Virus record (IMG/VR): IMGVR_UViG_3300025276_002912
Span: 1-21,977 of that record
Length of the DNA stretch: 21,977 nucleotides
Direction: 5' to 3' (one strand)
Source: a virus
In this document: positions 1-19,100 of the stretch, piece after piece
Numbering within the stretch: the stretch's first letter is position 1
How the letters are laid out: each line of letters starts with the position of its first letter
Translations under genes and position numbers: made by a program
Notes under the pieces: model-generated
Told to the model about the DNA's origin: nothing
Seen by the model: the letters and a program-made list of their open reading frames with translations, nothing else
Databases searched by the model: none

Positions 1-163
1 TTCTAAGTAGTTCAGGATAAAATAGTTCTTTAAACTTATCTAAAGATATTGTATATTTTTTATCATTTAAATTAATGCGAAGAGGTTTAACCCTGTGACA
101 AGCAGGACATTTAGCATTACATCTAAATGTTAACTCTGTTGTAAGTTGTCTATATTTTCTCAT
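1..163 (-). CDS. Radical SAM enzyme, N-terminal part (runs off window)
   Basis: This gene starts with ATG at 163-161 and is still open at base 1, giving 54 visible residues. Cys15, Cys19 and Cys22 form CNAKCPAC, the CX3CX2C signature that holds the [4Fe-4S] cluster of radical SAM enzymes; the preceding ELTFRC lies on the first beta strand of the barrel, as usual. The cluster motif comes within the first 22 residues, so any accessory SPASM or Twitch domain would have to be C-terminal, unlike the other radical SAM enzyme at 11089-12300. The start codon shares one base with the stop of the fibre gene upstream (TAATG), so translation is probably coupled. The substrate is unknown. I am confident in the superfamily, not in the function. 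Confidence 0.85.
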   Translation of the reverse strand, partial: MRKYRQLTTELTFRCNAKCPACHRVKPLRINLNDKKYTISLDKFKELFYPELLR

Positions 164-2036: not shown

Positions 2037-3293
2037 CTATGTTTTTATTATATATCTTGCAACAGCATGTGGAACCACCGCTGTATGTGTATGACCACCG
2101 GCACTAACAGCTGTTAGTACTGTTACACCACCAGCATCTTTTACGCCTGTTGATGCAGAACTTGTTGACGTAGATAAAGCAGCAGATCCAGAAGCAGTAG
2201 TTAAAGTACCTCCAGAAGCAAATGTTCCAGCACCTGCACCATGATTATTATTAGTACCAGCACCCATCAACATCTTGTTTTTTAAATCGGGAGCTGCAAA
2301 AGTGCTACCTGCACTAGCTCCTGCACCATAAGTAGTACCTATAGTTGCAAATAGAGCAGCATATGTACTTCTAACTAGACTTTGCCCATTACAATTTATC
2401 CAACCTGCAGGAGTAGAATTTGCTCCATAAGCTACAATAGTTCCTACAGGAATCAAAGGTACAGGTGCTGTACCAGAACCTGTAATTGCAGAAGATAATA
2501 CAACATTAGCAGCTATAGGTGCATAAGTACCATTTTGTTGTATAATATTTAGTCCATTTTTAGTAGATGCGACTCCTGGTATATGGGCTAAAGATACATT
2601 AGCGCTAGAACTACCAAAATTAAATAGTATAGCAGTATTGTCACTAGAACCTATACTCGATATTTTAAGGGCTGCATGCCCTACCCCTATAGTTTCTGGA
2701 AACCATTTTTTACCACCACCAGCTGTGGTAGCTGTTATAGTAAGATTGTTAGTACTTACTCCGCTTGTTGTTAAGTTAGTTCTATCAGAGGTAACACCGC
2801 TAATAGCAATCATCGTATTAACAACTTGCCCTGTTCCTGGTGTACCTATATCAAAAATAGCAGCATCATTAGCATTATTACTAGTTTTTAAATAGACTCT
2901 AGAGTTAGCGGCTAAAGTACCATTTTCAGATACAGTAGCTACTAATTCACCAATATCATAATGACTAACATTAGACATCAAAGATACAATACCATTTTCT
3001 ATTCTATGGCCTATACCTACTCTAGTAAAATTGCCACCAATATGAGAACTTTTCTTAGTTGTAGAGTCAGAAATAAATAGAGCATTAACATTTGCATTAG
3101 CAAACTGCATCATAGTGCCATCAGGTACAGCAATACCGTCACCCGATGCAGTAATATTTACAGTAGCAGGAGGACTAGAACTTCTAAAATTAGTTAAAAG
3201 TGATCTCATAGAATTATTGAACTGGGTGCGGGCACTGTTTAGTGACGTACCTGCAGTAGCTTCAATATATGTATTTGAATCTTGTAGTGCCAT
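2037..3293 (-). CDS. Tail fibre protein with phage tail collar domain
   Basis: This 418-aa fibre has the phage Tail Collar domain at about residues 280-346: PVGTIVAYG, then PAGWINCNGQ, then a TYGAG segment and FAAPDLKNKMLMGAG, the usual order in this family. After it come a Gly/Ser/Thr-rich stretch, an HTHT dipeptide repeat at 401-404 and a terminal VARYIIKT strand, as in many short-tail-fibre-like tips. HTH motifs of this kind bind metal in T4 gp12, so metal binding is plausible here. Residues 1-275 are beta-rich and low in cysteine, without a domain I can name. The ATG follows the stop of the gpJ-like gene with no gap, so the two are probably translated together. Probable role: a distal or baseplate-attached fibre for host contact. 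Confidence 0.85.
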   Translation of the reverse strand: MALQDSNTYIEATAGTSLNSARTQFNNSMRSLLTNFRSSSPPATVNITASGDGIAVPDGTMMQFANANVNALFISDSTTKKSSHIGGNFTRVGIGHRIENGIVSLMSNVSHYDIGELVATVSENGTLAANSRVYLKTSNNANDAAIFDIGTPGTGQVVNTMIAISGVTSDRTNLTTSGVSTNNLTITATTAGGGKKWFPETIGVGHAALKISSIGSSDNTAILFNFGSSSANVSLAHIPGVASTKNGLNIIQQNGTYAPIAANVVLSSAITGSGTAPVPLIPVGTIVAYGANSTPAGWINCNGQSLVRSTYAALFATIGTTYGAGASAGSTFAAPDLKNKMLMGAGTNNNHGAGAGTFASGGTLTTASGSAALSTSTSSASTGVKDAGGVTVLTAVSAGGHTHTAVVPHAVARYIIKT

Positions 3294-6200
3294 TTATACT
3301 CCTGTTGCTGTTAACATTACTGACATACCTGAAGATGTTGATCCTGCACCTCCATCATCACTCTTAAATACCTGATAACTAATTGCCTGATTTGATGCAG
3401 CAGTAGTTACTACTATATGAGGTTTATTAGAATCTTCACTAAGCATTGAGTAACTTATTACAGGTCTAGTAAGAAATCCTGCACTAGTAATATCAATAGT
3501 TTTAGTAGTAGCATTATATGCAGTAGTATCTGTAAAAGTAACTGTATCCTTTTCTATAGTATACCTAAATTTATCAATTGTAAAGTCAAATTCATCAGGT
3601 TGGTTATTTTGTATAATAAATTTTAATTGAAATTGTCTAAAGGTTCTAGTACCCGCTTGATACGTCTGAAAACCATCATTTACTGCTGAACCAATAAACT
3701 GACTTATATTAACATTGCCATTAGCATAATATAAAGCAGCATTTGCAGCAGTAGTAGTTCTAATTAGTGTTTGGCTACTAACAGCTCCTAATGTTCCTGC
3801 AAAAGTATCACCAGAACCTGTGTCAATATATTGTTTAAAGTTAACTAACTTATAACTACTTGCAGCAGATGTTATATTGGCTAAGACATTTCCGCCAGTA
3901 GCATCACCATTAGAAAAATAAGAATCTCCTAGTCTAATTTCATCAACATCTATAACACCAGCTATTAGTGCATAAGAATTAGCATTTGCATAGTCACCTT
4001 GATCTAATACTCCTTCAGAAACATAAGTACCAAAACCACTTGAGTTAAGTGCCGCACTTCTTCCTGCATTAGTATAGAGTTGTACACTAGTAGCATTTAC
4101 CCTATTAACATATAGTTCTCTATTGTTTATTTGAGTCATACCATTTACATCATGAATAATAATTCTATTACCATTTACTAGTCCATGCTCACTACCACCA
4201 GTAGTCACAACTGCAGGACTAGCTTTTGTAATTCCTGTAATAGTTATCACATTACCTGTATATTTACCATCATCCCAAATAGCAAATACATTACCAGAAG
4301 CACCACCTGTCATAAAAGTTTGATTATTAGAATCGAATCTAGGACTAACTACTGCTGTATTACTAAATCCCAGCACATGACCAATTCCCCCAAAACTTGC
4401 ATCTTTTAATACGCCAGCAGTTCCGGAAGCATCAGTAACACCTGATAAATATGTTTCTTTAGAATCATTAAAAGTAGTTTCTACTGCCTGACTTCCTTCT
4501 ATATCTACAAATATAGCGCCTGTCACAGTACTTCCTGCATCTCTAATTGAAGTTATATATTCTGCAGATTCACTAGCTAATAAGTCACTAGCAGCGGCTG
4601 CAGAAGAAAAACCACTAGAAGTACCGTTTGCATTATCGACAATAGAACTAGGGTGTCCATCACCTTTATTAGCAAATGCTACTCCACCACTGTTAGAAGT
4701 TGTAAAAGAAGGATAAACAGCTTCTGCACTATTATCATTAGTTCTACCTGCAAAAATAGTAGTAGGTGCGTCCTCACTATAGGCTCTTATTACCGTACTT
4801 CTATTAGGACGACTAGTAGTTAGTGTTATAACAACTACCTCATCACTAAAGTTACCGCTGGTATCTCTAGTCCTAGCTAGGTAACTAAATTCCCCAAAAG
4901 TATCAATAGGAATTGATTTGCGAGCAGTACCTGCCGAGACAGTAACTAAACCGTCAGCTACAACAAAATTCGCAATGCTGGCTGATTGCGTTCCTGCTAT
5001 TCGTTTTATTACAACCTCTTTTAAATCTATGTCTGCCAATTCTCCATCACTAGTACGAGGATAAGACCATAATAAAGTAATTTGATCAGTCTGTTGACCA
5101 CCAGTAAAATTAAATATATTTGAGGGTTTAGCTGTCTTACCAATAATAGATTTACTTATATTAGCAGTTATCCCTCTTATTTCTTTATTTAAAGGCACAA
5201 CTCTAAATACAATATTTCTAGTATCACTAGTTTGTCCTCTATTTACGCCGTTAACAGTAAATCTAAGCTTACCATCAGAATCTACCCCAGTAGCAGGAAC
5301 TTTTACAGTATTAAAAGAAGTTAAATCAGTACCGCCATCATCTACACCTACATCATCTACTGAATCTAATTTATATGATATTTCATAATCTGTAACATTT
5401 TGTTGCTGAATATGATCAAATTGTATAGTAACACGTACAGCTACTCCTCCAGTTTGTTCACGGTACAAAGATTCTATAATATTAATATTTTCTACTTTTT
5501 GTATAGGAATAGGATTAATATTTAATGATTTACTATTAAAAGGACTAGTTCTACCTCCTCTAGTTTTATTCCTAGCTCTTATAGAAGTAGTTCCTACATT
5601 TAAATCTGGTATTACCATGTCTTTAGTTAGAAATATAGATTCAAAGTCAGATCCAACTTCTAATTTATACACTCTATTATTAGCTAAAGCAAATCTACCT
5701 GGAAAAGCAGCAGGATCATAGTCAAAAGTACCTGAGCCTCCTGAAATATTACCTAAAGAACCTATAGGATCAGGAGTTATATTAGTAAAAGTAAATCCTG
5801 CTAAATTAGAATTAGGTCTAGAACCAGTGTGTATTCTAAATATTGAGTTAGCAGTCAGTGCAGCATTATACTTAGGAGAAGTAGAATCATAGCTATTAGT
5901 AAGTATACTAAATACATTAGCATGGGAAGATTGTACATTATCTCCTATCTCAAATACAGGAACAGTATAATAGTCTACCTCTGTTCTAAAAGCTGTTTCA
6001 GTAGCAGTACTTGTATATACTATATTTGAATTATTTAAGGGAACTGTATCATTTTTATTAAATACAAACTGACCAGAACTTTTTTGACTACCATCTACAA
6101 ATAATCTAATAAAAGCTTTATCTCTAGGAGTTACAGGCAAATCAATAGTACTAGTAGTAGCACCATTTATTTCACCACTTTTTACATAAGTATCTTCATA

Positions 6201-9200
6201 TCCAGATACATAAAAACTATTATTTGCGTAATGTCTAGAATCTAAAAGTTGATTTAAAGTAACATAAAAAGGAGCTTCAGGTACTTTATTAGCTAATGTT
6301 ACGTCACTAGTTCTTTTATTTTGTATCTTTAATTTATCTGTAGCAAGAGTATAACCCGTGATAGGCTGACTTAAATCAGTTATAATACCTGCATATCCTA
6401 TAAAATTTAATAAACCCTGTTGTTGATCTTTTTCCTTGATAGGAATAGTAACATGATCTGTACCTTTTAGTGTACCAAAAACAGAATCGTCATTAGCATT
6501 TAACAAATCAGTTTGAAAATTTTCATCGAATACTTGACCAAAACCTTGTAAAGTTAATTCTATATTACCATCTTGAGTACCGCCAACAGTATCTACAACA
6601 TTAACAGCTGTACATAATAATTTAACCTCACCAGCAACACTACTAAATCCATTTTTACCAGATAAAGTTATAGGATTTACTTCGCCTACTAACACATTTG
6701 CGTGCTCTACATGAATAACTTGATTATTAATACCAGATAAATTTGCATTTGCTACTAGGGTAGCTCCTGATGGTTTAGATAACTCATATTCAGTAACATA
6801 AGTAACACCAAAACCATCTTTTTCTGTTGATGTTTTTATTAAACCATCAATAATTACTGATCCATCTAGTTTTCTTCTAGCACTAGTAACAAAATCAAAT
6901 TGAGGAACAGGAGGTACTGACAATGCAGATTGCATATCGGTATATGCAGTAGGTTTATAGTCAATAAACTTATCAGAATCTACATATACATTAGATATAT
7001 ATTCAACAGCTTGTAGTTTAACTTCTTCATCATCCATTTCTCTTTCTATTTGTGTCACTTTAAATAGTTTATCACTTTTAGCTCTGTATATATCTCCTTC
7101 AGATTCTATTTCTCCAAAAGTCCATAAGTCTCCCTTAGTAGGAGCTGTGTTAGCAGTAAAAGCAGTATAGTTATCCCATACTTTAGTAATAGGATTATAT
7201 CTTTTAATAGGATTTACAATAGCATGGTCTATACCAGAATTTACAGCATCAGTAGTTGTTAATGCAAATTTAGTTTTAGATAATATATATACATCAATCT
7301 TATCATTAACCATTTTTATAACTCTAAGCACTAAGGGACCAGTATTAGCACTAAAATCCGTAGAAGCTAAAGAAGGTACAGTATAATGTTCTAGAAATAC
7401 ATTAGTATTACTTGACTGAACTGGGGAGCTTGCTCTTATTTTACCGCCATAACCATATGCAATACCATTAGCTTGTTGTGACACTGCAATCACATCTCCA
7501 GGTACTAACTGTAGTGCATCAGTACTAGTAGTAAAATTACAAGTTCTTCGCAAGTATCTAGATGAAGCAATTTGATATTGAGCATATCTAAGAGCTTGTC
7601 CTCTTCTAGTAACACCAGGCACGTCCAATGACGTTAAATTTTCTATTTCAGTTTTTCTAATACCGTCATTACTTCCTAATTGATCTATACGTACTGTTTC
7701 TCTTTTATAGTGATTACCTGGGTCTACATAGCTAACATCTACCCCTGTTAATACATCACTTTCTTTATTACCTGCTATTACAAAAGTATCTTCTTTTATA
7801 TTAGTCTCATTAAATACCATAACAGGAGTTTCATCAGGTAAATCACATGCCATAGTTATTTTACCATGCGCATATATGATAGCTCCTCTAAAACTAGCAG
7901 CTAAAGCATTAATAGTATCAAATGATTGTTTTTGATCTGCAACAATACAGTCTAAAGTAAATCTTCTTTCTTTTATTTTAGTACCTTGATCTATACCTAA
8001 TTGATTTTCTCGTGTAGTTGTAAAAGTATTTCTAGGTTTACTTCTAAAAGTACCATCAGCAATACCTTCTACTCCAATAAAATTACCAGTAGTATAGTCA
8101 CAAGCATCGCAATATTGAGCTATTTGATAAAATCTATATTTATCAATATTGCTTTCTGGTATACTTAGTCCATATGTTTTATTTGTTAGTATATCATATA
8201 TAATCCATACAGGATTTTGTGACCATGAATATACAAAAGTACCGTCCCAAGTTCCTGCATATATATTAATAGTAGAACTAGTTTGAACTGCGGTGCCTGA
8301 TTGTTGCATAAAATAACCAGCTGTTGCTGCACTATCAGCACCTGTAGCAGGAACTTCTATATGTCTCCAATCAATTTCTCCATTAACTAAAGTAGGTTGA
8401 TTATAGTTAGTAGGAACTTTAAGTAATAAACCTTTTACTAAGCTAGTAAAACTAGGAATACCACTATGTTCATCAGTAGCTTTTAACGCAAAACCTATAT
8501 GAGCAGTTCTAGGATATGCTTGTGGAGAATTTTCTATCTCATTCCAGCCAAGTAGTCTCACATCATCAGTTGTACCAGAGCTAGAAGAATCACTAGAAGT
8601 TTTACGTACTGAAAATTTATAACCATTTGTACTTTTACTAGCTTCAGGTATTTGAATCTTTACGTTAAATTTAAAACTAACAGTTGTTTTACCACTTACA
8701 GTTTTATTAGCAGAAGCAATTTGAGTTGATCCATTGCTGTTAAAAACTGTTATAGCTACAGATAAACTATGTCGTAGTACATCACCTTTATCTGTAATTC
8801 TTTGTAGAGATGCAATAGTAAATTGAAATTCTAAAGCATCCCAATCCTTAGAAGAAGTTTCTTGTAATGTAACTCCAGAAGCAGGTATACCACTGCTACC
8901 GTTTTTTAAAGAGACAGGAGATGCAAAATTTTGTGGAGTAGTTACTGTTTCACCAAATACATCTAACCTACCTTGTACTGGTGTACCAGTAGTAGATATT
9001 GTTTTAAATTTTTTAGTTTGTTCAAGTCCATCCCCATCTAAATTAACTAGATCATCAATAGAGCTATCTGCAAGTTCTATATCTTGAGGACCATTAGGAT
9101 TAATTCTATATAGTGGTCCTTCTCCAAGTCCTACTACAACAAAAAGAATATCAGTAGAAAATAAACTTTGAGGATCTTCTACTGGAGTATGTGGTTCTTG

Positions 9201-9284
9201 TTGCGCTCCACCTTTACCGCCTTTTGCTCCTTGTATTTGGGGAACAAGAGTATTTGAATAATTAACAAAATTTCTAATCGCCAT
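3294..9284 (-). CDS. J: Central tail tip / host specificity protein, gpJ-like
   Basis: At 1996 aa this is far longer than lambda gpJ (1132 aa). The N-terminus carries the gpJ family phrases: GGKGG near residue 22, a TPVEDPQSLFS segment, and a GEGPLYRIN region. Residues of about 80-650 match the expected tip hub body, including a WRHIEVPATG segment and the region ending GYGYGGKIRAS. The later part holds beta-sandwich stretches that look like fibronectin type III domains (about 1300-1500), an E1_FCCH-like module (about 1680-1757) and a C-terminal beta domain. By analogy with lambda it forms the trimeric central fibre, contacts the receptor and opens the channel for DNA. It overlaps the gpI-like gene by 11 nt. 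The C-terminal extension is where host range would be expected to vary. Confidence 0.9.
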   Translation of the reverse strand: MAIRNFVNYSNTLVPQIQGAKGGKGGAQQEPHTPVEDPQSLFSTDILFVVVGLGEGPLYRINPNGPQDIELADSSIDDLVNLDGDGLEQTKKFKTISTTGTPVQGRLDVFGETVTTPQNFASPVSLKNGSSGIPASGVTLQETSSKDWDALEFQFTIASLQRITDKGDVLRHSLSVAITVFNSNGSTQIASANKTVSGKTTVSFKFNVKIQIPEASKSTNGYKFSVRKTSSDSSSSGTTDDVRLLGWNEIENSPQAYPRTAHIGFALKATDEHSGIPSFTSLVKGLLLKVPTNYNQPTLVNGEIDWRHIEVPATGADSAATAGYFMQQSGTAVQTSSTINIYAGTWDGTFVYSWSQNPVWIIYDILTNKTYGLSIPESNIDKYRFYQIAQYCDACDYTTGNFIGVEGIADGTFRSKPRNTFTTTRENQLGIDQGTKIKERRFTLDCIVADQKQSFDTINALAASFRGAIIYAHGKITMACDLPDETPVMVFNETNIKEDTFVIAGNKESDVLTGVDVSYVDPGNHYKRETVRIDQLGSNDGIRKTEIENLTSLDVPGVTRRGQALRYAQYQIASSRYLRRTCNFTTSTDALQLVPGDVIAVSQQANGIAYGYGGKIRASSPVQSSNTNVFLEHYTVPSLASTDFSANTGPLVLRVIKMVNDKIDVYILSKTKFALTTTDAVNSGIDHAIVNPIKRYNPITKVWDNYTAFTANTAPTKGDLWTFGEIESEGDIYRAKSDKLFKVTQIEREMDDEEVKLQAVEYISNVYVDSDKFIDYKPTAYTDMQSALSVPPVPQFDFVTSARRKLDGSVIIDGLIKTSTEKDGFGVTYVTEYELSKPSGATLVANANLSGINNQVIHVEHANVLVGEVNPITLSGKNGFSSVAGEVKLLCTAVNVVDTVGGTQDGNIELTLQGFGQVFDENFQTDLLNANDDSVFGTLKGTDHVTIPIKEKDQQQGLLNFIGYAGIITDLSQPITGYTLATDKLKIQNKRTSDVTLANKVPEAPFYVTLNQLLDSRHYANNSFYVSGYEDTYVKSGEINGATTSTIDLPVTPRDKAFIRLFVDGSQKSSGQFVFNKNDTVPLNNSNIVYTSTATETAFRTEVDYYTVPVFEIGDNVQSSHANVFSILTNSYDSTSPKYNAALTANSIFRIHTGSRPNSNLAGFTFTNITPDPIGSLGNISGGSGTFDYDPAAFPGRFALANNRVYKLEVGSDFESIFLTKDMVIPDLNVGTTSIRARNKTRGGRTSPFNSKSLNINPIPIQKVENINIIESLYREQTGGVAVRVTIQFDHIQQQNVTDYEISYKLDSVDDVGVDDGGTDLTSFNTVKVPATGVDSDGKLRFTVNGVNRGQTSDTRNIVFRVVPLNKEIRGITANISKSIIGKTAKPSNIFNFTGGQQTDQITLLWSYPRTSDGELADIDLKEVVIKRIAGTQSASIANFVVADGLVTVSAGTARKSIPIDTFGEFSYLARTRDTSGNFSDEVVVITLTTSRPNRSTVIRAYSEDAPTTIFAGRTNDNSAEAVYPSFTTSNSGGVAFANKGDGHPSSIVDNANGTSSGFSSAAAASDLLASESAEYITSIRDAGSTVTGAIFVDIEGSQAVETTFNDSKETYLSGVTDASGTAGVLKDASFGGIGHVLGFSNTAVVSPRFDSNNQTFMTGGASGNVFAIWDDGKYTGNVITITGITKASPAVVTTGGSEHGLVNGNRIIIHDVNGMTQINNRELYVNRVNATSVQLYTNAGRSAALNSSGFGTYVSEGVLDQGDYANANSYALIAGVIDVDEIRLGDSYFSNGDATGGNVLANITSAASSYKLVNFKQYIDTGSGDTFAGTLGAVSSQTLIRTTTAANAALYYANGNVNISQFIGSAVNDGFQTYQAGTRTFRQFQLKFIIQNNQPDEFDFTIDKFRYTIEKDTVTFTDTTAYNATTKTIDITSAGFLTRPVISYSMLSEDSNKPHIVVTTAASNQAISYQVFKSDDGGAGSTSSGMSVMLTATGV
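4012..4250 (-). other. E1_FCCH-like beta module inside the gpJ-like protein
   Basis: The encoded segment runs from TITGITKASPAVVT through HGLVNGNRI and VNGMTQIN to TYVSEG (edges approximate). It shares this pattern with a module in the gpL-like protein at 13793-13999. In databases such phage modules are often labelled ubiquitin-activating enzyme E1 FCCH domain. The name refers to the fold only; no ubiquitin chemistry is implied. Confidence 0.6.
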
Positions 9285-9984
9285 CGAACTGCGCTCCTAC
9301 ACTAATTTGGTCTCCACTGCCATGGGGAATAGAACTTATATAACCACTTAAAAATTGTCCACCTACTCTGTGTTGGCCATATATTAAAGCAATAGGAGTA
9401 CCACTTTCAGAACTATTAGTTAGACTACCAAACATTCCGCTATCTCTAGTAGTAGATTCTGTAGTTTTTTGTGCTTGTCTAGCTGCAGGAGACTTAGTAA
9501 ACATTCTTCCTATAATAGACATACCTATATTTAAAGCCATAGTACCTAAAAAACTCATACCTTTACCTGCAGCCATTGCTGTTGTTATACTTGCCTTTGC
9601 ACCTACTAACAGAGCTTGTCCAGGAGGGGTCATAGCTAACATTATAACAGCAGCAATCATAAACATTTTTCTACCTGATTTACCGCCACCACCACATATA
9701 TTAGGAACTAAATGTATAGTATCCCCATCTTTAAAATGTTTAAGTTCTAGCATTTCTTCAGTAATCTCTTTTAAATTCTTATCAAGTAGAGAAAAAGACT
9801 CATCAGAATCTCCAGAACCGATCTGTGTCATATACTTGGAAAATTTAGGATGCATACCTTTAAGATAATGCATAACATCTGCAGCAATATACGCATCAAA
9901 AGTATATTCTTTTTCTTCAAAAAATTTATTATATGCTGAGTGTATTTTAATATTAATTAACAAGATGTTCTTCCTTAAACTCAT
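9274..9984 (-). CDS. I: Tail tip assembly protein, gpI-like
   Basis: The protein has the layout of lambda-type gpI. It has an N-terminal ubiquitin-like beta-grasp half (about residues 8-95) ending in DTIHLVPNI. A Gly-rich turn follows (GGGGKSGR, about 98-105), then a hydrophobic helix (about 107-130), and a C-terminal phrase PIALIYGQHRVGGQFLSGYI near 198-217. In lambda, gpI acts with gpL, gpK and gpJ in building the tail tip and is not found in the virion. The start is uncertain. ATG at 9984 overlaps the JAMM gene by 32 nt and has no clear Shine-Dalgarno. TTG at 9963 has AAGGAA seven bases upstream, overlaps by only 11 nt, and would start the protein directly at the beta-grasp strand. The stop overlaps the gpJ-like start by 11 nt. 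Confidence 0.85.
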   Translation of the reverse strand: MSLRKNILLINIKIHSAYNKFFEEKEYTFDAYIAADVMHYLKGMHPKFSKYMTQIGSGDSDESFSLLDKNLKEITEEMLELKHFKDGDTIHLVPNICGGGGKSGRKMFMIAAVIMLAMTPPGQALLVGAKASITTAMAAGKGMSFLGTMALNIGMSIIGRMFTKSPAARQAQKTTESTTRDSGMFGSLTNSSESGTPIALIYGQHRVGGQFLSGYISSIPHGSGDQISVGAQFDGD

Positions 9985-10324
9985 CAAATATGAGTGCGTC
10001 TACGTTATAGTCTAACCAGTATATAAAAAATTTATTATTAAAACCTACTAAAAATTTATATTCTTGAAAAGCTGCACTTACTTTATCTTCCCTACTTGGG
10101 ATAGGGTTTTCTTCACCCGGATGGGAGTGAAAAATACCCCATATATTACCATCATTTCTAACTAAATCTGCAGGATCTAATATAAAAGTTGTTTTAGGAT
10201 AAGGAGATGTATTAGTACAAGGTATATAGGTAAAGTCATTAGTTACTATTCCTACACATTCTCTAGGATAATCTAGCATGGCATGTCCGTTCATATCCTC
10301 AACTAGTTTTATAAATCTTTCCAT
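9953..10324 (-). CDS. JAMM/Mov34 metallopeptidase, N-terminal half of gpK function
   Basis: This 123-aa protein has a complete JAMM zinc-peptidase motif: Glu22 in the strand PRECVGI, then HSHP at 66-69, seven residues, Ser77 and Asp80 (H-x-H-P-x7-S-x2-D). All metal and catalytic residues are present. In lambda gpK the JAMM domain is fused to an NlpC/P60 domain; here it stands alone and the NlpC/P60 partners are the two genes just upstream. It overlaps the preceding gene by 16 nt, with GGGG 8 nt before the ATG. Likely role: processing of a tail tip component or peptidoglycan stem peptides during tip assembly or DNA entry. The target is not known. Confidence 0.9.
   Translation of the reverse strand: MERFIKLVEDMNGHAMLDYPRECVGIVTNDFTYIPCTNTSPYPKTTFILDPADLVRNDGNIWGIFHSHPGEENPIPSREDKVSAAFQEYKFLVGFNNKFFIYWLDYNVDALIFDEFKEEHLVN
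9971..9976 (-). promoter_or_regulatory. Shine-Dalgarno favouring an internal TTG start of the gpI-like gene
   Basis: AAGGAA lies 7 nt before TTG at 9963-9961. The ATG at 9984 lacks such a site. If used, the gpI-like protein would be seven residues shorter than from the ATG. Confidence 0.45.
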
Positions 10325-10734
10325 CTGTAAATCCCCGTAGTATATTGTTTATAGTAGTTTCCGTAAGGAGCAATCCAACTTTTATGGTTTATCATAGTTT
10401 GTAGTATTTTATTTCTATCTGCGTATAAAGCACAATGATTAGTTACATTTGTAGCACCTAAACTCATAGTTATTATATCGTAAGGCTTAGGTTCTTTTAC
10501 TTTTATCCAACCATACTCATCTGTAGCTGCTTGCTCAAATAATCTTTCTTGAGTCTTACTATACCAATCTTCATCTACTATTTTACAAAAGTAATCTGTT
10601 GTGTAAGGAATATCTATTTCTAATTCGTTTAGGTACACTAATTTGCAGAGATTAAAACAATCAATCCCTTTCTCAGCATTATTACCTAAATGTAAATATG
10701 GAAAATCTTTGTATTTATCATACCAAACTGTCAT
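10309..10734 (-). CDS. NlpC/P60-like cysteine peptidase, second of a tandem pair
   Basis: This 141-aa protein shows an NlpC/P60 pattern: GIDCF with probable nucleophile Cys26 at the start of a helix, then a DIITMSL strand near 86-92 and NHCALY with probable His100. The phrase HKSWIAPY near 117-124 lies where the third polar residue is often found. A GIYR strand closes the fold, as in phage members. The family cleaves D-Glu-diaminopimelate type bonds in peptidoglycan or acts as a tail tip processing enzyme. It overlaps the upstream paralogue by 17 nt and the JAMM gene by 16 nt. Cys26 is preceded by Asp, as in canonical members, so this copy is the more typical of the two. Confidence 0.75.
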   Translation of the reverse strand: MTVWYDKYKDFPYLHLGNNAEKGIDCFNLCKLVYLNELEIDIPYTTDYFCKIVDEDWYSKTQERLFEQAATDEYGWIKVKEPKPYDIITMSLGATNVTNHCALYADRNKILQTMINHKSWIAPYGNYYKQYTTGIYRWKDL

Positions 10735-11107
10735 GCCTATAAATCGAATGTATACTCTCTACCCAATAGTCTGATAAAGTTTCTACACACGAAATTCCCC
10801 CTTCTTCGATATGTAACATTTTAGATGGCATTAAATACATTCCAAAATGTGTTACTAAATTTGTTTTTTCTGACTTAAATGCTATTACATCATAATCTTT
10901 AGCGTTTGTCAAACTTACTTTTTTAGCACATTGAGCTGCCCAATTATCTATACTAGTTGTAGTAAATTCTTTAATCCAATGCTTAGACAGAGGGTAATCA
11001 GGTAAAGAAAATTCTAAACTCAATTCATTGTGATAAAAGTCTTTTATTATTGTTATACAATTTACACTATCATATGAATGTGGTAGGCTTATATAGTTTC
11101 GTACCAC
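10718..11107 (-). CDS. NlpC/P60-like cysteine peptidase, first of a tandem pair
   Basis: This 129-aa protein appears to be a paralogue of the next gene. The putative nucleophile Cys17 lies in YDSVNCITIIKDFY, and a shared Y-x-N-E-L phrase follows in both proteins. A DVIAF strand (about 73-77), THFGMYL with His87, MLHIEEGG with His99 and a closing SIYR strand complete the fold. It has Asn rather than Asp before the Cys, so it is more diverged and activity is less certain. It starts at GTG 11107 with GGAG 8 nt upstream and overlaps the radical SAM gene by 19 nt. Alternatively one copy may be structural rather than catalytic. Confidence 0.65.
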   Translation of the reverse strand: MVRNYISLPHSYDSVNCITIIKDFYHNELSLEFSLPDYPLSKHWIKEFTTTSIDNWAAQCAKKVSLTNAKDYDVIAFKSEKTNLVTHFGMYLMPSKMLHIEEGGISCVETLSDYWVESIHSIYRHDSLV

Positions 11108-12300
11108 GATGCAAACTCCGGAAAAGTAGTTACAAAAGATTCATTGCGTAATTTATCAACTCTTTCAGTCTCTTGCTTAAATTCTAGTAATTGATCACTT
11201 TCATCTACACTAGTCATATAGCTTAGCCAATTTTTTATTTGTTCTAAATCATATACTGTTAATATTGTTCTATACTCTTTAATAAATTTTTTATATATAG
11301 TTAACACTTGTTTTTTAGACTCTTTAGGTAAACAAGTAATTTTTTGGTAAGAAGGTTCTAATTGTGTTGAACCATAAAAATCAAAATCATTACGTTTACA
11401 CCATATAATAAGATCAGGCATAGAAGTTATACTATATATATTTATAACACAACTAACTGTTTGTATATGTTCTTTAAACATAATAGCATGTTTTTCAAAT
11501 TTAGGCCAGGATAATCCTTTTCTAGCATACTCTACTCGGCTTCCATATCCTTCAACACTAGGCCAGATAGATACTTTTTTAAAATTAGCCCATAGTTGGG
11601 TAAGATCATATTTTTTAAATTTAGAATAACTTAAGTTAGTATTATAACTAATATGAATATTTTTAGCATAGCCTGAATCTATAAGTAAATTAAGCATTTT
11701 ATAATGACCTTCTTGTATAAAAGGCTCACCTCCTGCAAAATATATCTCTTCTAAATTAGGAATATATTGAGGTACATCTAACCAAAAATCCTCATTATCT
11801 GTATAATAGTCTTTAGTCTTATTCCAGCCAGCTTCTAAAGTATCTTTATACCAACTAGTAGATGCATAAGGTCCACACATTCTACATTTAAAATTACATA
11901 AATTACCAAATCTAATATCTAGATAAGTAGGAGTAGTATCTATACTACCATCTTCATTAGTCTTATCTTGTAGATAACCATATTTATTAAATCTTTGATT
12001 TACTTGTAATCTATTACTACCGCTACCTTGTTTTTCTTTATTATAACAGGCTTCTATACACTCACTAGGTATATTATTTTTTAAAAGATTAAGACGAGCT
12101 TCTTTATATTCTGTACTATTCCATATTTCACCTAAAGATTGTTTATAGTTACCCATAGGTCTAACGCTAGAAGTATATTCAGCATGACAACATATATAAA
12201 AATTGCCACTTAGACTACCAAAAATATGCATCCAAGGAAGTATACAGCCTTTTATATTATTGTTTAGGTATTGTTCGTCCTGTTGCAGGGAAACCTCCAA
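11089..12300 (-). CDS. Twitch-domain radical SAM enzyme inside the tail tip cassette
   Basis: This is a protein of about 400 aa. The radical SAM cluster motif CNFKCRMC is at Cys135, Cys139 and Cys142, followed by an FAGGEPF segment at 188-194, the SAM-binding GGEP motif. Before the barrel lies an N-terminal Twitch-like half: CILPWMH at 19-25, NFYICCH at 33-39 and CIEAC at 81-85, which could bind an auxiliary Fe-S cluster. This order matches the N-terminal Twitch radical SAM proteins found in bacteria and phages. Such enzymes usually modify peptides or proteins, but the substrate is unknown. The gene overlaps gpL by up to 44 nt and the next gene by 19 nt. There is no ATG before the first Twitch cysteine, so the start must be TTG at 12300 or CTG at 12288. 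Confidence 0.9.
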   Translation of the reverse strand: MEVSLQQDEQYLNNNIKGCILPWMHIFGSLSGNFYICCHAEYTSSVRPMGNYKQSLGEIWNSTEYKEARLNLLKNNIPSECIEACYNKEKQGSGSNRLQVNQRFNKYGYLQDKTNEDGSIDTTPTYLDIRFGNLCNFKCRMCGPYASTSWYKDTLEAGWNKTKDYYTDNEDFWLDVPQYIPNLEEIYFAGGEPFIQEGHYKMLNLLIDSGYAKNIHISYNTNLSYSKFKKYDLTQLWANFKKVSIWPSVEGYGSRVEYARKGLSWPKFEKHAIMFKEHIQTVSCVINIYSITSMPDLIIWCKRNDFDFYGSTQLEPSYQKITCLPKESKKQVLTIYKKFIKEYRTILTVYDLEQIKNWLSYMTSVDESDQLLEFKQETERVDKLRNESFVTTFPEFASWYETI

Positions 12301-14527
12301 AATGTAAAGAGTTATTTCTTATGGTACAGGCTAATATATTTTTACCACATACATCTCCTTCAGGACCGGAAGCAGTTTGATTATCTACACCAATAGGATT
12401 AGTATTAGCAGTAAGACTAGTACCTGGTATAGTACCACCTCCTGGTCCAGGATACTGACACTCTTCTCCTTTATACTGCCACTGACAAGTATTTTTATAA
12501 TATTTACGTCTAGGAGTTACTTGTTTAAAATATTGAAGCCAAGTAACTAAGCCAAAGGCAGCAGTAGTATCGCCTAAAGACTCTAATTGATCTATTCTAA
12601 ATCTATCTTCAATATATGATTCAGTATCTACATCATCATTTATAATAAAAACAGAATCTCCTATAGAAGTATTAGATTCTAAGCCATTAGATAAGAATAA
12701 AAATCTATTTTCTTCTATAGTTTGTATAGTAGCAAAAGTTGAGCCTTTTGACGAACGAATCTTATCTCCTACTCTATAAGGCATACTATTATATACCTCA
12801 ATCACGTTTCCTGAAACATATTTAATAGAACTATGCTCAGGCCAAACATCTAAAAAATTGGCAAATGTAGTCTTAATATTAACTACAGCACCTTGTAAAT
12901 CTCTAGAATCATTTTTAAGCTCTCTCCAAGTTCCTGCAACTGCCTCTGTTTGGAATTTTGTAAAAGAAGAATTAGCTTGCCCATAGAATCCTTCTATAGC
13001 AGAGCTATAGTTTAAACCTTTTGCTCTTGCTATAGTTAAAGTATCAAAAGCAACTTCTCCAGCATTACCTACTTGTGCAGGAGTAAAGTTAATGGTTCTA
13101 GGGTCAATACCGTGACAAGGTACTCCATTAACATTAGCAACACATGAATTAGATGTATTATTACCCACAATAAAAGGATCTTCAACCAATGCTGATATAA
13201 TATTATCAACATTGAATATTGTCAAAGTAAGTTCATTAATTTTTCCATCAGTACCTTGACTAATACTCGATACATCTACAGGAAATGGTATGTATGAATC
13301 TCCATCATAAGTTACATTATAGTTTAGATCAGAAATTAAGTCACCAGCTATATCTGCAAACTTTAAAGGAAAATTAGTAGGCCAAGCTCTACCCTGACCA
13401 TCTTCTGTGGGATTACCTTCAGGAGTTGCGGGAAACCACTCACCAGGATAATATATTTCATACAGTCGTACTATAGGATTTTGTGTAAAAGCATTTTTTT
13501 CGGCTATAAAAGGACTAGGAGCTTGTGAAGATAGGGTAGCTGCAGCAGTTTGTTGAGCGGAAATAAATATATTAGCAACAAAAGGTACACTTATTAAACT
13601 ACTGCCTGAATCAATAAATAATATTGTCCCATTAGGAATACTATTTGGAGCATCAGATACAGTTAACTGGGTAGTACTATCTACACTCGTAACAGTTTGT
13701 GTACCTGTATAACCATTACTATTTGGAGAGTTAACTACGTAGCCAGCATTTATTCCTATAGTATTAGCAACTGTTAAAATAGTATGAAAACTTGCTGTAC
13801 CTGCACTTGAGTATGCAGTGAATGAAGAAGTATTAACAAAAATAATAAAACTATCCTCATCTATAACTGTAATTGTATAAACATTTCCATTAACTTGTGT
13901 CATACCTACTACACCTGAAAATGCAATACGATTTCCTGTACTAAATCCGTGTGCACTAGCTGTTACCACACCTGGATCAGCTCTTGTTATGCCTGTAATT
14001 GTTTTACTAGTACCTGCTATGCCCCCTATATTAGAAACCTTAAAGGTTAAGACAGCAGCTCCTCCACCTCCAAGTTTATTATCAGCAACAGTAATAATAT
14101 CTCCTATAACGAATCTGTCACCACCAGCAATAACTGTAACTGCTGCTGCACCAGAACTATTAACTACTATAGAAAAAGTTGCATCTATACCGCTACCAGT
14201 ATGAGTATAGTCAGTCGCACCAATAGCATAGGTTCCTGCAGTACGAGCGGATACTGCAGCGCTAATAGTATTAATTGTTAAGATAGGAGTAAATACGGTG
14301 GTAGTAAGTCTAGCACCCCCTACAATAGAGGCACTTGAAGTCACTGTTTCACTATTATGAAACTCTTGTAAAACGTTATTTAATTTAACTTTTACCTCAT
14401 TAGTTGTTTGGTTAACATTAGCAATTAACGCTACTGTTTTACTAGTAGAGCCTACAACAGAGTTGCCAGAAACAAACCCAGTGGCATTATTTACAGTAAG
14501 TATTACGTCATAATTTCTAGCAGTCAT
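12257..14527 (-). CDS. L: Tail tip protein gpL-like, iron-sulfur cysteines, long N-terminal extension
   Basis: The C-terminal part of this 756-aa protein matches lambda gpL. It has NTCQWQYKGEEC with Cys681 and Cys690, then CGKNILAC with Cys727 and Cys734, then the FGGFP phrase at 743-747. These four cysteines correspond to those that hold the [4Fe-4S] cluster in gpL. An upstream gpL-like region reads YIPFPVDVSSIS (about 412-423). Lambda gpL is only 232 aa; here about 340 residues are added at the front, including an E1_FCCH-like module (177-245), and another insertion of roughly 180 residues (about 455-635) lies between the two gpL halves. The ATG at 14527 shares one base with the stop of the gpM-like gene (TAATG). 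It forms part of the tail tip below the tape measure. Confidence 0.9.
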   Translation of the reverse strand: MTARNYDVILTVNNATGFVSGNSVVGSTSKTVALIANVNQTTNEVKVKLNNVLQEFHNSETVTSSASIVGGARLTTTVFTPILTINTISAAVSARTAGTYAIGATDYTHTGSGIDATFSIVVNSSGAAAVTVIAGGDRFVIGDIITVADNKLGGGGAAVLTFKVSNIGGIAGTSKTITGITRADPGVVTASAHGFSTGNRIAFSGVVGMTQVNGNVYTITVIDEDSFIIFVNTSSFTAYSSAGTASFHTILTVANTIGINAGYVVNSPNSNGYTGTQTVTSVDSTTQLTVSDAPNSIPNGTILFIDSGSSLISVPFVANIFISAQQTAAATLSSQAPSPFIAEKNAFTQNPIVRLYEIYYPGEWFPATPEGNPTEDGQGRAWPTNFPLKFADIAGDLISDLNYNVTYDGDSYIPFPVDVSSISQGTDGKINELTLTIFNVDNIISALVEDPFIVGNNTSNSCVANVNGVPCHGIDPRTINFTPAQVGNAGEVAFDTLTIARAKGLNYSSAIEGFYGQANSSFTKFQTEAVAGTWRELKNDSRDLQGAVVNIKTTFANFLDVWPEHSSIKYVSGNVIEVYNSMPYRVGDKIRSSKGSTFATIQTIEENRFLFLSNGLESNTSIGDSVFIINDDVDTESYIEDRFRIDQLESLGDTTAAFGLVTWLQYFKQVTPRRKYYKNTCQWQYKGEECQYPGPGGGTIPGTSLTANTNPIGVDNQTASGPEGDVCGKNILACTIRNNSLHFGGFPATGRTIPKQ
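12294..12298 (-). promoter_or_regulatory. GGAGG ribosome binding site inside the end of the gpL gene
   Basis: GGAGG, which also encodes part of the FGGF motif of the gpL-like protein, lies 5 nt before an in-frame CTG at 12288-12286. The TTG at 12300 overlaps this site and has no Shine-Dalgarno of its own, so CTG initiation of the radical SAM gene deserves consideration. Confidence 0.5.
13793..13999 (-). other. E1_FCCH-like beta module inside the gpL-like protein
   Basis: Residues 177-245 follow the pattern TITGITRADPGVVT, then HGFSTGNRI, then VVGMTQVNGNVY. The same pattern occurs in the gpJ-like protein at about 4012-4250, so a single beta module has been used twice in this tail. It probably adds surface decoration or subunit contacts. 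Confidence 0.65.
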
Positions 14528-16146
14528 TAATCATATGTCTCTTGCAATTTAAAACTAACAGTGAAAAAGTTTTCTGTTAAACTAGTACCTGCTGATAAAA
14601 CTTGACTTATTTGTAAATCTCCGTCAAATCTTGTACTAATTGTACCACTCTCGTTTAGATGTGACAAGTCAAAACTAAAAGATTCAAATTCTCCACTTCG
14701 GGCATTATAAAAGTTCTCAATTGCAGTTCTTTCTATTCCTGATATATTAGTATATTGTAAGTCATAAGCTCTAAGACCTCTTCTAGATTTTAATCTTCTT
14801 TTTTCATAGCCTGCTTGAGACTTAAAGGTACTTACTTCAAATTTCTTACTAGTTGAAAATCCTGAATCAGGTTTTCTATCCGCCATAGAATTAAATCTAT
14901 CACCTACAGTAACACTAGAATCAAATACTCTAACAGATAACGTATCGTCAGAATATATAGACCCTAAAGGTGCTCCACCTATTACTGTAGCAGTAGTAGG
15001 TAATGAGTTTATAGTAGCTGTTCTATATCTAGCACCATCTGACATACGTATATACTCAATTTTACCTTTAAATCTCTGCCTACTAGTAACAGATCCACCA
15101 GCTACAGAATCATTAGCACCTATAATTAACGAACCGCCAGGAAAAGTAGCTACTGCAGGATTATAGTTTACATGTTTAACTAATTTACCTTGAACATATA
15201 AGCGTAAATTAGCAGTAGTTTTATCATAAGATAGTGCAACACTATATGAGGTACCTCCATTACAATTACCACCATATATTTCTGTTATAGTATTTGCTTT
15301 ATTTATTATAAAACCTACATTAGAATTTGATCCTACAGTACGTAGAGCATAGTAGTTTGTAGAACTATTTTTACGAGCTATTACAGTTTGATTAGAACTC
15401 ATACTAGTTCCTGAATCAGGAGTTATAATAGTGTCAAAAGTAAATGATTTTTCTTCTCCTGCATTAAAATCATTACCGGAACCTATTACAGCTATAAATT
15501 TAGAACCATCTAGCACTACATTAGAACCGCTAAAACTAGCAGAGCCAGTATTTATTTGCACTGTATGTTCTTTAGGACTTAAGTCTGTTAAATTACCTGC
15601 AAAATTAGTTAATAAGTTTACAGATGCATTATCACCTATATCTATACCTTGATACCCTAAATTAACAGAAGGATATGTGTAAGCAGTTGGTTGTTGAAAA
15701 ACACCAGAAGCATATACTATAAAATCACTAGTACTAACTACATTAACGCTTGCGGGAAAAGAAAAAGACTCAGTAACTCCATTTATAATATAGTTATTAC
15801 CATTAATTACTGTGGGAGCTGTGTTACTAAAATCTGCTGCTACTACTTCAGGAAAACTTCTAGTTAATCTATATCTTTCAGGTAATGTTATAGTTTTTAC
15901 AACTAATTGAGTAGCATTAGGAGCATCTGCAAATGTTATGGTTTGTCCTGCATTAGATAAACTATAGGTAATAGTGGATTGTAAAACACCATCATCAAAA
16001 GCTGTCACTTCTCCTTTACTAGTAACAGTACTAGGTAAGTTAAAAGTTACTCTAGTTGTTCCAGTGTTATTAAAAGTACTAGTAGCTACAACAGAAAAAG
16101 CTGTTATAGGAGCTTGTGCGTCATCAGGGTAGGTAGCAATAGTCAT
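14527..16146 (-). CDS. M: Minor tail protein gpM/DUF2460-like with inserted LamG-like domain
   Basis: The C-terminal 110 residues of this 539-aa protein resemble lambda gpM and DUF2460 proteins: KFEVSTFKSQAGYEKRR (about 435-451), YDLQYTNISGIERTAIENFY (461-480), ESFSFD, and a closing TVSFKLQETYD strand. Lambda gpM is only about 110 aa. In front are a small beta module (about 12-88), a second similar segment (139-165) and a LamG/concanavalin-like domain (about 176-374) with NLLTNFAG at its start, YVQGKLV in the middle and FKGKIEYIRMSDGARY at its end. LamG folds often bind glycans, so a side-surface carbohydrate-binding role is possible. The gene follows the tape measure by 3 nt and precedes gpL with a TAATG overlap, exactly the lambda H-M-L order. 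Confidence 0.8.
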   Translation of the reverse strand: MTIATYPDDAQAPITAFSVVATSTFNNTGTTRVTFNLPSTVTSKGEVTAFDDGVLQSTITYSLSNAGQTITFADAPNATQLVVKTITLPERYRLTRSFPEVVAADFSNTAPTVINGNNYIINGVTESFSFPASVNVVSTSDFIVYASGVFQQPTAYTYPSVNLGYQGIDIGDNASVNLLTNFAGNLTDLSPKEHTVQINTGSASFSGSNVVLDGSKFIAVIGSGNDFNAGEEKSFTFDTIITPDSGTSMSSNQTVIARKNSSTNYYALRTVGSNSNVGFIINKANTITEIYGGNCNGGTSYSVALSYDKTTANLRLYVQGKLVKHVNYNPAVATFPGGSLIIGANDSVAGGSVTSRQRFKGKIEYIRMSDGARYRTATINSLPTTATVIGGAPLGSIYSDDTLSVRVFDSSVTVGDRFNSMADRKPDSGFSTSKKFEVSTFKSQAGYEKRRLKSRRGLRAYDLQYTNISGIERTAIENFYNARSGEFESFSFDLSHLNESGTISTRFDGDLQISQVLSAGTSLTENFFTVSFKLQETYD

Positions 16147-16149
16147 ATC

Positions 16150-19100
16150 TTATCCATTTCTCATAGCATTTCTAATAGGTCCGTTGCTTTGTAAGTCTCT
16201 CATTACAACCTCAACTACGATCTTATCAGCATCAAATTTAGGGGGTCCTTGCTGTTCGGCAGATTTAGGTGCGCCCTCATTAACAATGTTAAATTGTACA
16301 TTACCCATACCAGCAGCCCCAGTAGCGTTCATTTGACCCAGTGCACGATTACCTATAGATTTAGCAGCAGGTTTACGAATTACAAATTCTCCAGGTTCTA
16401 ACATGGCGGGTACACGGTCACGAAGTGCATTTACTTGTCCACCAGCCGCCATATTTCTAACACCTGTCATACCGACTAGTCCTCCGGTAGCCGCAGCAGC
16501 AGGCCCAAAAAAACTAAGAGCTGTTTTACCCAGATTAAACAGAGTAGATCCAACACCTTCTCCACCGTTACCAGTTATACCCTGCATGAATCCTGATAAG
16601 CTCTTCATAATACCGCCTTCTCCAGTAAATAAATCCTTAAGACTGCTACCTAAACCTCTAAATGTCTCCATAGCTTTGCTGCCAAATTCACCAAGACTAC
16701 TTTGTATAGTTTCAAATGCTCCTTTAGCTTTTTCTTTAAAGCCAGTAAAGAAGCTTTCACCTTTTTCTTCCATCTCTCTTTTTACTTTGGTAATAGGGCC
16801 TTCTTCTGCTCCGTCTAAAGTAACAGGCACTTTTTTCCCTACCAGCTCAACGTCATCAATGCCTTTTTTGTCAAGGTCAAATCCAGTAAGATTACCTATA
16901 AAACCCTTCATCATATCTTGAGCAGGAGTAACAATAGTCTGACTAACAATAGTTTTACGTATGTCTTCATACATTCCTAATCCTATTTCTTTAATACCAT
17001 CTGTTAAAGAAGCACCTCTAGTTGATATATTTTCAAAAACTTTTTGAATAGCGTTAGCTAGTCCACCATTAATATCATTAGTTATTCCTAGTATTAGCTC
17101 TTTTAATTTTTTTCTAGCACTTAATTCATAAGCTAACTGCTCAAGTTTATCTTTAAAGAGTCTCTCTGCTGCTGCTCCTTCTGCGCCCATACCTGCTAAA
17201 GTTTTTCTAAGATTTTTTTCTATATTTTTTTCTTTTAAGTCGAAGTTAGCCATATCTGCTATCATCATTTGTTCAGCATGATTTAATTCCATATCCATTA
17301 TATCATTTTGTACTTTGGCAACCAGTCGTTGTTGTATTTCTAGATCACCATTTTTAGCTATTAAGAGTCCTAAGTTCTCAATACGTTTTTGAAGTAAATC
17401 TTTTTCTCCTTTAGCTGCAGCTTTAATACCTTCAGTTTGAGTAACTCCAGCTTGCGTAATAAGATCACTAATAGTATCATAATTTTCTAAAATGTCCTTT
17501 ACATTATCCATTAAACCTTGAGAAGGATCATCTAATTTACTAGTGGTTCTAAGAGTGAGTTCTTTGGCTTTTTCATTACCGTTTGCTATTAGTAAATCTC
17601 TATTATCAGCTATTACTTTTTTATCATGAGTAATCTGAGTTAATAGTAACGCAGCTTTATCTCTTTGTAAGGTATTTTGTGCTTGTCTATCTACAATTTG
17701 AGCTGATACTGCGGCTAAATCATCTTTTCTCTTTAAATCTATATTCTCTTTTTGCTGACGTAGAATGTCTTGTTCAAATAATTTTCCAAGATTCATTATT
17801 TCAAATTCTGCTTGACGTACAGTTTCTTGTTGATTGAATAAGTCTTTTCTTTGTTTAAGCTCTGCTAGAATATCAGCTTGCTCATCTTTTCGAGCAGCTC
17901 TTTGGTCATCAAGAGCTGCTTTATCTTGTTTTGCTTTTAATCTAGCTACACCAGCCTGTGCTCCTGCAGATCTTTTAGCTTCTTCCATTTTTGTTTTTTC
18001 TAAAGCTAGTTCTACTTTTAGTATATCTTCGCGTTTGAGAATAGTACGATCTAAAATTTTAGCAGTTTCTCGTTCTGCTTTTGCTACTCTAGCAGCAGAA
18101 GCAGCTTGCGCACCTGCAGCAGATGCTTCTGCATCAATCATTACTCCTTGTCTTTCTATAGCTGCACCTTGTCTACCCACAGCATTTAATTCTCTTAACT
18201 GACTAGCAGCTAATTCAGTTTTTTCTGCGTTAACACCCATTACTGCATTAAACGACTTTAACCGCTCAATATCATCTGTGCCTAGTATTACTACAGATTT
18301 ATATCGTCTTTTAGAATCAGTAGCATTCTCCATTGCAACAGCTGCCCCATTTAATCTCAATTGCAGTAGATTTACAGCTTTTGCATCCTTTCCAAAAGTT
18401 TCGGCACCACCATAATCTCTAGCTAATGATTGTTGCACAGCTGCACGAGCAGCTGTGGGAATTGGTGCTTGATCAAGTCGATCTATCTGGTTGGAGTTTA
18501 AGGCGCCCTCATCAGCAGCACCACCTCTTGGAGCGTTAAAAGATGCTTGTATAGTCGGTCCTTTAAAACCTATTCTAGCATTATCCTGGACACCTTGAAG
18601 TTCAATATTTTTAAAAGGATTTTTTGCTCCAGCACGCCTCTGTATAAATGCTCCTCGCTGAGTCATACTTTCTATATCAGCCTGTTTTTTTGCTATATCA
18701 AGACTACGATTGGCCTCTCTATTTTTAGCTTCTTGTACCCTAAGCTGCTCGTAAGCAGCAGCCAATAGTTTGTCTTGTGCTTTTGCTTCTTTTTCTACTA
18801 AAGGTACTCTTTTAATTTGTTGAGCAAAAGCCTCTTTAGATGTTTTAAGTAGTATCTCATCTATCACTGCAATAGCTGATGCATTTCTTAGTTCTTCTTC
18901 CCGAATGGTTACAGTAGCATCTAAGTCTGCTCTTTTTTGTTTTAAGGCAGCTAAATTAGCTCTCTGAAATGTAAGTTCTTCTTCAGCATTTTTAGCTATC
19001 TGTCCTGTTTCAGCACTTACCTTTCCGTTTAAATACATATCTTCTAAGAAAGAAAAACTTTTTTGAAAAGTCTTAGCTAATTTATTATTTAGTGCGTTCA

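Follow-up and report, generated by a model that had tools for sequence, protein, structure and literature searches.

An N-twitch radical SAM enzyme gene in the tail-tip operon of uncultured siphophages, a possible optional modifier of a tail protein

The tail-tip operon of the 21,977-base virus record analysed here (the window, meaning the whole stretch) holds, between its gpL-like gene and its first NlpC/P60 peptidase gene, a gene for a radical SAM enzyme, rSAM1, whose identity and position are secure. Siphophage tail-tip operons belong to the most strongly conserved gene blocks of these phages and are commonly supposed to do with structural and peptidase genes alone. The carriers of rSAM1 are uncultured, mostly marine viruses of bacteria, which form a large siphophage group; within it, rSAM1 keeps its slot and is exchanged there as a cassette. 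The most economical reading, put forward tentatively, would be that rSAM1 optionally modifies a protein which that operon produces.

On the minus strand, the genes follow each other in the order tape measure, lectin/DUF2460-like protein, gpL, rSAM1, NlpC1, NlpC2, JAB, gpI, gpJ, collar fibre, acidic protein and fibre-like protein (Table 1). This is the order of the lambda-type tail-tip operon (L-K-I-J), with a gpL bearing four C-terminal cysteines, NlpC and JAB domains, gpI and gpJ. Nevertheless, the lambda-type gpK is whole, whereas here NlpC and JAB are split, an extra NlpC gene is present, rSAM1 stands between L and K, and a second radical SAM gene (rSAM2) lies behind the fibre-like gene. 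The gpK functions are divided in the window between two NlpC/P60 genes and a separate JAB gene (9953-11107), NlpC2 and the JAB gene together resembling a split gpK. Besides, the gpL of the window (12257-14527) contains at residues ~186-245 an E1_FCCH-like domain that resembles a stretch of gpJ, with 31-37% identity in relatives, and that is apparently missing from the gpL of some close relatives. The reading frame of rSAM1 overlaps that of gpL by 44 bp and that of NlpC1 by 19 bp; together with the family matches of the neighbours, these overlaps bear out the position between gpL-like and NlpC/P60/JAMM genes, with overlaps on both sides, that an earlier note on this DNA had described. Its translation probably goes together with that of the tip proteins.

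Table 1. Genes of the tail operon and motifs of rSAM1, with positions in the window
Feature	Positions	Strand	Basis
Fibre-like virion protein	163..1404	(-)	phrog_16122
Collar-domain tail fibre protein	2037..3293	(-)	PF07484
gpJ-like central fibre	3294..9284	(-)	phrog_31, E=1.8e-99
gpI-like protein; N-terminus weakly MoaD/ubiquitin-like, GGGG, hydrophobic part	9274..9987	(-)	phrog_32; TIGR01687 weak
JAB/MPN peptidase (Prok-JAB)	9953..10324	(-)	PF14464; phrog_30
NlpC2, NlpC/P60 peptidase 2	10309..10734	(-)	PF00877; phrog_30
NlpC1, NlpC/P60 peptidase 1	10718..11107	(-)	PF00877; phrog_30
rSAM1, N-twitch radical SAM enzyme, 403 aa	11089..12300	(-)	NF033640; AF2 model; TTG start uncertain
Radical SAM core, rSAM1 residues 130-288	11437..11913	(-)	PF04055
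GGEP, G190-G191-E192-P193, SAM binding	11722..11733	(-)	alignment
CX3CX2C, C135-x3-C139-x2-C142, radical SAM [4Fe-4S] site	11875..11898	(-)	alignment
N-terminal SPASM/twitch domain, rSAM1 residues 19-85	12046..12246	(-)	PF13186 and invariant cysteines
gpL-like tail-tip hub protein, four conserved C-terminal cysteines	12257..14527	(-)	PF05100; TIGR01600, 77.8 bits; alignment
Lectin-domain tail protein with DUF2460-like C-terminus, upstream of gpL	14527..16146	(-)	PF13385 over cut-off, PF09343 below
Tape measure protein	16150..21936	(-)	phrog_3779

At the composition of the window, an open frame of 403 codons would arise by chance with a probability of ~4e-15. Neither the TTG start nor the first ~15 residues can be taken as certain, because distant relatives begin with an ATG at the residue equivalent to ~15-16 of rSAM1, directly past the gpL stop. 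The protein reaches 356 bits with NF033640 (N_Twi_rSAM, twitch domain-containing radical SAM protein; cut-off 170) and matches this model over its full length, from position 5 to position 398 of 398, sharing its arrangement of an N-terminal auxiliary-cluster domain followed by the radical SAM core. NF033640 is a broad family with no functional name, of which only the rSAM1 subclade is bound to the gpL-NlpC slot. In Pfam, the SPASM domain (PF13186) scores 34.8 bits against a cut-off of 21.5 and the Radical_SAM domain (PF04055) 34.4 bits against 29.5. The cysteines C19, C37, C38, C81 and C85 are invariant in 11 aligned sequences, the same columns being invariant in 63, and so is the CX3CX2C motif in these 63 sequences. 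The twitch-like cysteine set, the CX3CX2C at 135-142 and the GGEP at 190-193 are therefore present as previously proposed, the two motifs being invariant among the relatives. Cleavage of SAM by rSAM1 is a prediction from family and motifs.

The AF2 model of rSAM1 has a mean pLDDT of 94.5, and a search of solved structures with it places at the top the RiPP maturases SuiB, SkfB and a sactisynthase (E ~3e-6 to 1e-5), with BlsE, which is not a RiPP enzyme, as the second-best match. Since the TM-scores are only ~0.35-0.40, these matches inform on the core and not on the function. rSAM1 shares with the SPASM/twitch RiPP maturases the radical SAM core and the SPASM/twitch cysteines, but their SPASM/twitch domain lies C-terminal to the core while that of rSAM1 is N-terminal. 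On both sides rSAM1 is flanked by overlapping tail-tip genes; neither a precursor-peptide gene nor an RRE domain was recognised, the Pfam matches including no RRE family. Two named families were rejected for rSAM1, namely viperin (TIGR04278, 21.5 bits against a cut-off of 450; NF038283, 21.6 against 180) and the tungsten oxidoreductase radical SAM maturase (TIGR04317, 28 bits against 380).

In a first homologue scan, the gene order was kept in all loci reaching the neighbours, down to 45% identity, and scans anchored on NlpC2 and on gpL instead of rSAM1 returned the same order, gene-less loci excepted. The gpL/NlpC slot holds 97 of the 99 unique close homologues of rSAM1 (IMG/VR, at least 400 bits), a count that includes L061, whose listing as an exception is a distance-threshold artefact, given that its two frames overlap by 286 bp, slightly past the limit that was set. 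The co-occurrence in gpL-K intervals that the earlier note had offered as a check is thus found for the close family. Where the sequence continues far enough past a unique gpL gene, that gene is directly followed by rSAM1 in 103 cases, by NlpC1 in 10 and by NlpC2 in 2. In a tree of 75 homologues, the slot members and the two exceptions, L216 and L252, share one branch with a support of 100, the exceptions being nested inside, which suggests a single entry into the slot followed by two later escapes. In the slot, rSAM1 is retained to ~39% identity. With a dN/dS of ~0.21 versus the window, compared to 0.11-0.25 for the tip genes, it is under purifying selection like its neighbours.

Within this fixed slot, rSAM1 itself is an exchange cassette. 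Near-identical tip operons carry rSAM1 alleles that are 44-48% apart, the identity dropping sharply at the gene edges, and the protein distances agree with these drops in DNA identity. In the pair L054/L080, the gpL DNA is nearly identical and the identity falls to ~0.6 from the rSAM1 start, only one edge being visible as L080 ends within NlpC1. In the pair L131/L132, the identity passes from ~0.83 to 0.54-0.65 through rSAM1 and then exceeds 0.9 in NlpC2, while in L105/L112 it declines from ~0.96 to ~0.8 over rSAM1 and a portion of NlpC1 before recovering to 0.99. Because alleles exchange between near-identical operons, rSAM1 is not closely adapted to a particular gpL or JAB.

At 12 of 115 unique gpL loci, which fall into two gpL lineages, rSAM1 is absent. 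In the first type of loss (17 loci, L145-147, L153-165 and L173, several from the same contigs), gpL leads directly into NlpC1, which keeps its Cys and His; in the second (L178, L195, L201), both rSAM1 and NlpC1 are missing. Both types sit among carriers in the gpL tree, pointing to two changes, and rSAM1 was likely lost at least twice, a polarity that is likely rather than certain because of the midpoint root and of long branches in some carriers near type 1. The gene-less contigs, mostly fragments, yielded no further NF033640 member above the cut-off. The gpL of the gene-less lineages keeps all four cluster cysteines and still passes TIGR01600, so that its iron-sulfur site appears independent of rSAM1. 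The inference of the earlier note stands in part: a twitch/SPASM-type radical SAM enzyme is indeed built into the tail-tip operon, as the family matches and the slot indicate, but its action on the gpL iron-sulfur site is contradicted by the cysteines kept in gene-less gpL and by near-identical gpL pairs whose enzymes are 44-48% apart, and its role as a needed maturation step by its absence from two gpL lineages. Since the slot is kept while the gene is swapped and was lost at least twice, rSAM1 is probably an accessory that modifies the tail or host attachment, and not a required assembly step. As a separate observation, type 1 L147 (8787-10165) and its relatives carry two gpI-like genes in tandem; this duplication was discarded as a mark of gene-less phages, being also present in the carriers L151, L152 and L263.

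In the proposed mechanism, one N-twitch radical SAM gene would have entered the gpL-NlpC slot once and would have spread mainly by descent through uncultured siphophages. SAM would be reduced at the CX3CX2C cluster to yield a 5'-deoxyadenosyl radical, as in other twitch/SPASM radical SAM enzymes, and hydrogen would be abstracted from the substrate with the help of the auxiliary cluster. The most likely substrate would be a tail-tip or fibre protein of the same operon, in which the changed residue may tune adsorption or stability, tails forming without the step; both the protein nature of the substrate and the effect on adsorption are what we infer from family and context. That rSAM1 is an accessory post-translational modifier of a candidate tail or virion protein, tuning adsorption, is a plausible reading held with limited confidence. 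It is favoured by the NF033640 and Pfam matches and by the RiPP maturases among the top fold matches, though with BlsE second and low TM-scores. It is also favoured by the 97 of 99 slot members on one fully supported branch, by the overlapping frames and neighbour-like dN/dS, by the cassette exchange, a pattern that we associate with adaptive accessory genes, and by the fixed place that rSAM2 has in this operon, after the fibre-like gene.

On the other side, a search for the substrate returned no residue that is strictly kept with rSAM1 and radically changed without it in gpL, the lectin protein, NlpC1, NlpC2, JAB, gpI, gpJ, the collar protein or the fibre, the sample for gpJ and the fibre being of only 10 carriers and 4 gene-less contigs; in the larger samples this result speaks against the accessory modifier. 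In gpL, the lectin protein, NlpC1, JAB and gpI, the changes were either conservative or showed exceptions, and the tyrosines and glutamine of the lectin protein were set aside on these grounds. Two other candidates were rejected as well: the second cysteine of NlpC2 (DCFNLC), supposedly lost without rSAM1, is L, V or I in 20 of 151 carrier loci and remains a cysteine in 6 of the 17 type 1 loci, and the collar change W298 to Y, taken as a gene-less mark, also occurs in the carriers L308 and L311. Besides, in L105/L112 the alleles are exchanged without a matching change in gpJ or collar, which again counts against the accessory modifier.

Related enzymes outside the slot could also fit another kind of substrate. 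One homologue nested in the phage tail-tip clade (L216:7878-9065) lies on a contig of a Neomarinimicrobiota MAG with an ordinary chromosomal gene content, including genes that by their sequences are pyrF- and pyrE-like. Its neighbours are the gene of an LPP20-type lipoprotein on one side and, on the other, a short lipoprotein-like gene followed by one of CsgG type. Another nested homologue, on the phage contig L252, stands amid glycosyltransferase, 2OG oxygenase and Asp/Asn hydroxylase genes. Homologues of ~30% identity, of which representatives also exceed the NF033640 cut-off, occur commonly elsewhere among viral contigs, where they often form runs of 2-7 radical SAM genes, and none of those outside the clade was found beside gpL or NlpC. 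Their arrays adjoin B12-binding radical SAM, UDP-sugar dehydrogenase and methyltransferase genes; in L277, L284, L295 and L303, five to seven N-twitch radical SAM genes stand in tandem, with B12-binding radical SAM and sugar-nucleotide genes nearby. In isolated phages, the matches to rSAM1 are only ~23% identical (Vibrio phages K566/K567 and one short marine record), and a search of genome contigs gave a single bacterial match. The scattering of homologues at unrelated positions, against which the earlier note had set its idea, is hence found for the distant N_Twi_rSAM homologues and for the nested L252 and L216, but not within the rest of the clade.

These neighbourhoods fit a glycan or small-molecule substrate as well as a protein, which weakens the accessory modifier and feeds its main rival: rSAM1 would act on the host surface, a glycan or a small molecule, for instance in a superinfection block or on an envelope sugar, the tail operon serving as a late-expression site only. 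The glycosyltransferase, oxygenase and hydroxylase genes around L252, the B12-binding radical SAM, UDP-sugar dehydrogenase and methyltransferase neighbours of the distant arrays, the lipoprotein-type and CsgG-type genes around the bacterial L216 homologue, the second place of BlsE among the solved folds and the failure to find a covarying tail residue all speak for it. Nevertheless, 97 of 99 close members hold the exact slot, whereas cargo genes usually move, and their frames overlap with those of the tip genes; this rival is accordingly regarded as rather unlikely, while deserving consideration.

A pairing of rSAM1 with NlpC1, by which rSAM1 would modify or mature this extra peptidase or both would act on the cell wall, is clearly improbable. 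The two genes are missing together in L178, L195 and L201, the stretch exchanged in L105/L112 extends into NlpC1, and the distance correlations of rSAM1 with NlpC1, NlpC2 and JAB exceed that with gpL. However, type 1 loci, several of them from the same contigs, lack rSAM1 only and retain an NlpC1 with its Cys and His, and the partial correlation is only 0.28 with NlpC1 and 0.44 with NlpC2; the mirror-tree correlations designate no single partner of rSAM1. The view that rSAM1 is a bystander, a mobile gene of the selfish or moron kind that landed where it is harmless and has no tail role, draws on the cassette exchange, the losses and the wide occurrence of the family elsewhere, but is made decidedly improbable by the single origin in the slot, the retention to ~39% identity, purifying selection like that on the tip genes and the fact that no flanking mobility gene was seen in the operon. 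Largely refuted and most improbable, finally, is an obligatory assembly step in which rSAM1 would mature gpL, be it the iron-sulfur cluster or some other conserved portion, given at least two losses with all gpL cysteines kept, the failure to find a conserved tip residue strictly lost along with rSAM1, the same gpL travelling with enzymes 44% apart, and lambda, whose genome to our knowledge has no rSAM1-like gene while its gpL has a cluster. In its favour are the adjacent and overlapping genes and the likeness of the four C-terminal gpL cysteines to the four by which lambda gpL binds its iron-sulfur cluster (PMC10721106).

The second radical SAM enzyme, rSAM2 (326-333 aa), bears a CNAKCPAC motif and C-terminal SPASM-like cysteines spaced like the N-terminal set of rSAM1. 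Its gene comes immediately after that of the fibre-like protein in every relative whose sequence extends far enough (78/78), in rSAM1 carriers and gene-less phages alike; in the rSAM2-anchored scan, this corresponds to 73 of 80 cases by strict distance and 5 more by looser spacing, the other 2 lying at contig ends. In the close relative G003, rSAM2 lies where the window ends, i.e. just beyond window position 1. No NCBIfam model reached its cut-off for rSAM2, PHROGs assigns it to a radical SAM family of unknown role, and its AF2 model is poor (pLDDT 64.5). Examples are found at L306:626-1627, L224:7335-8321 and L220:13413-14399.

It is conceivable, although doubtful, that a large marine virus group has its tail proteins modified by two operon-encoded radical SAM enzymes, one optional and swapped in the tip, the other fixed behind the fibre-like gene, and that the exchange of rSAM1 alleles alters adhesion or host range without any change in structural genes. 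If true, we would know of no earlier case in which a virion protein is modified by a radical SAM enzyme. Among the papers searched, none places a radical SAM enzyme in the tail tip of a phage; the closest is a passage on the radical SAM cassettes that pelagimyophages carry in their host-recognition island (PMC7029224). There, likewise, radical SAM genes lie near adhesion genes and differ between close phages, but the phage type is another and the island is variable, whereas rSAM1 occupies one fixed slot in the tip operon. With its slot-locked gene, natural gene-less relatives and allele swaps, the present group makes the chemical modification of phage tails and its effect on adsorption directly testable. 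Lastly, between the collar and fibre-like genes (window 1421-2026), a small acidic protein with repeated [DN]FLAEFFEELE-like motifs is conserved in the group and is a possible candidate chaperone or substrate.
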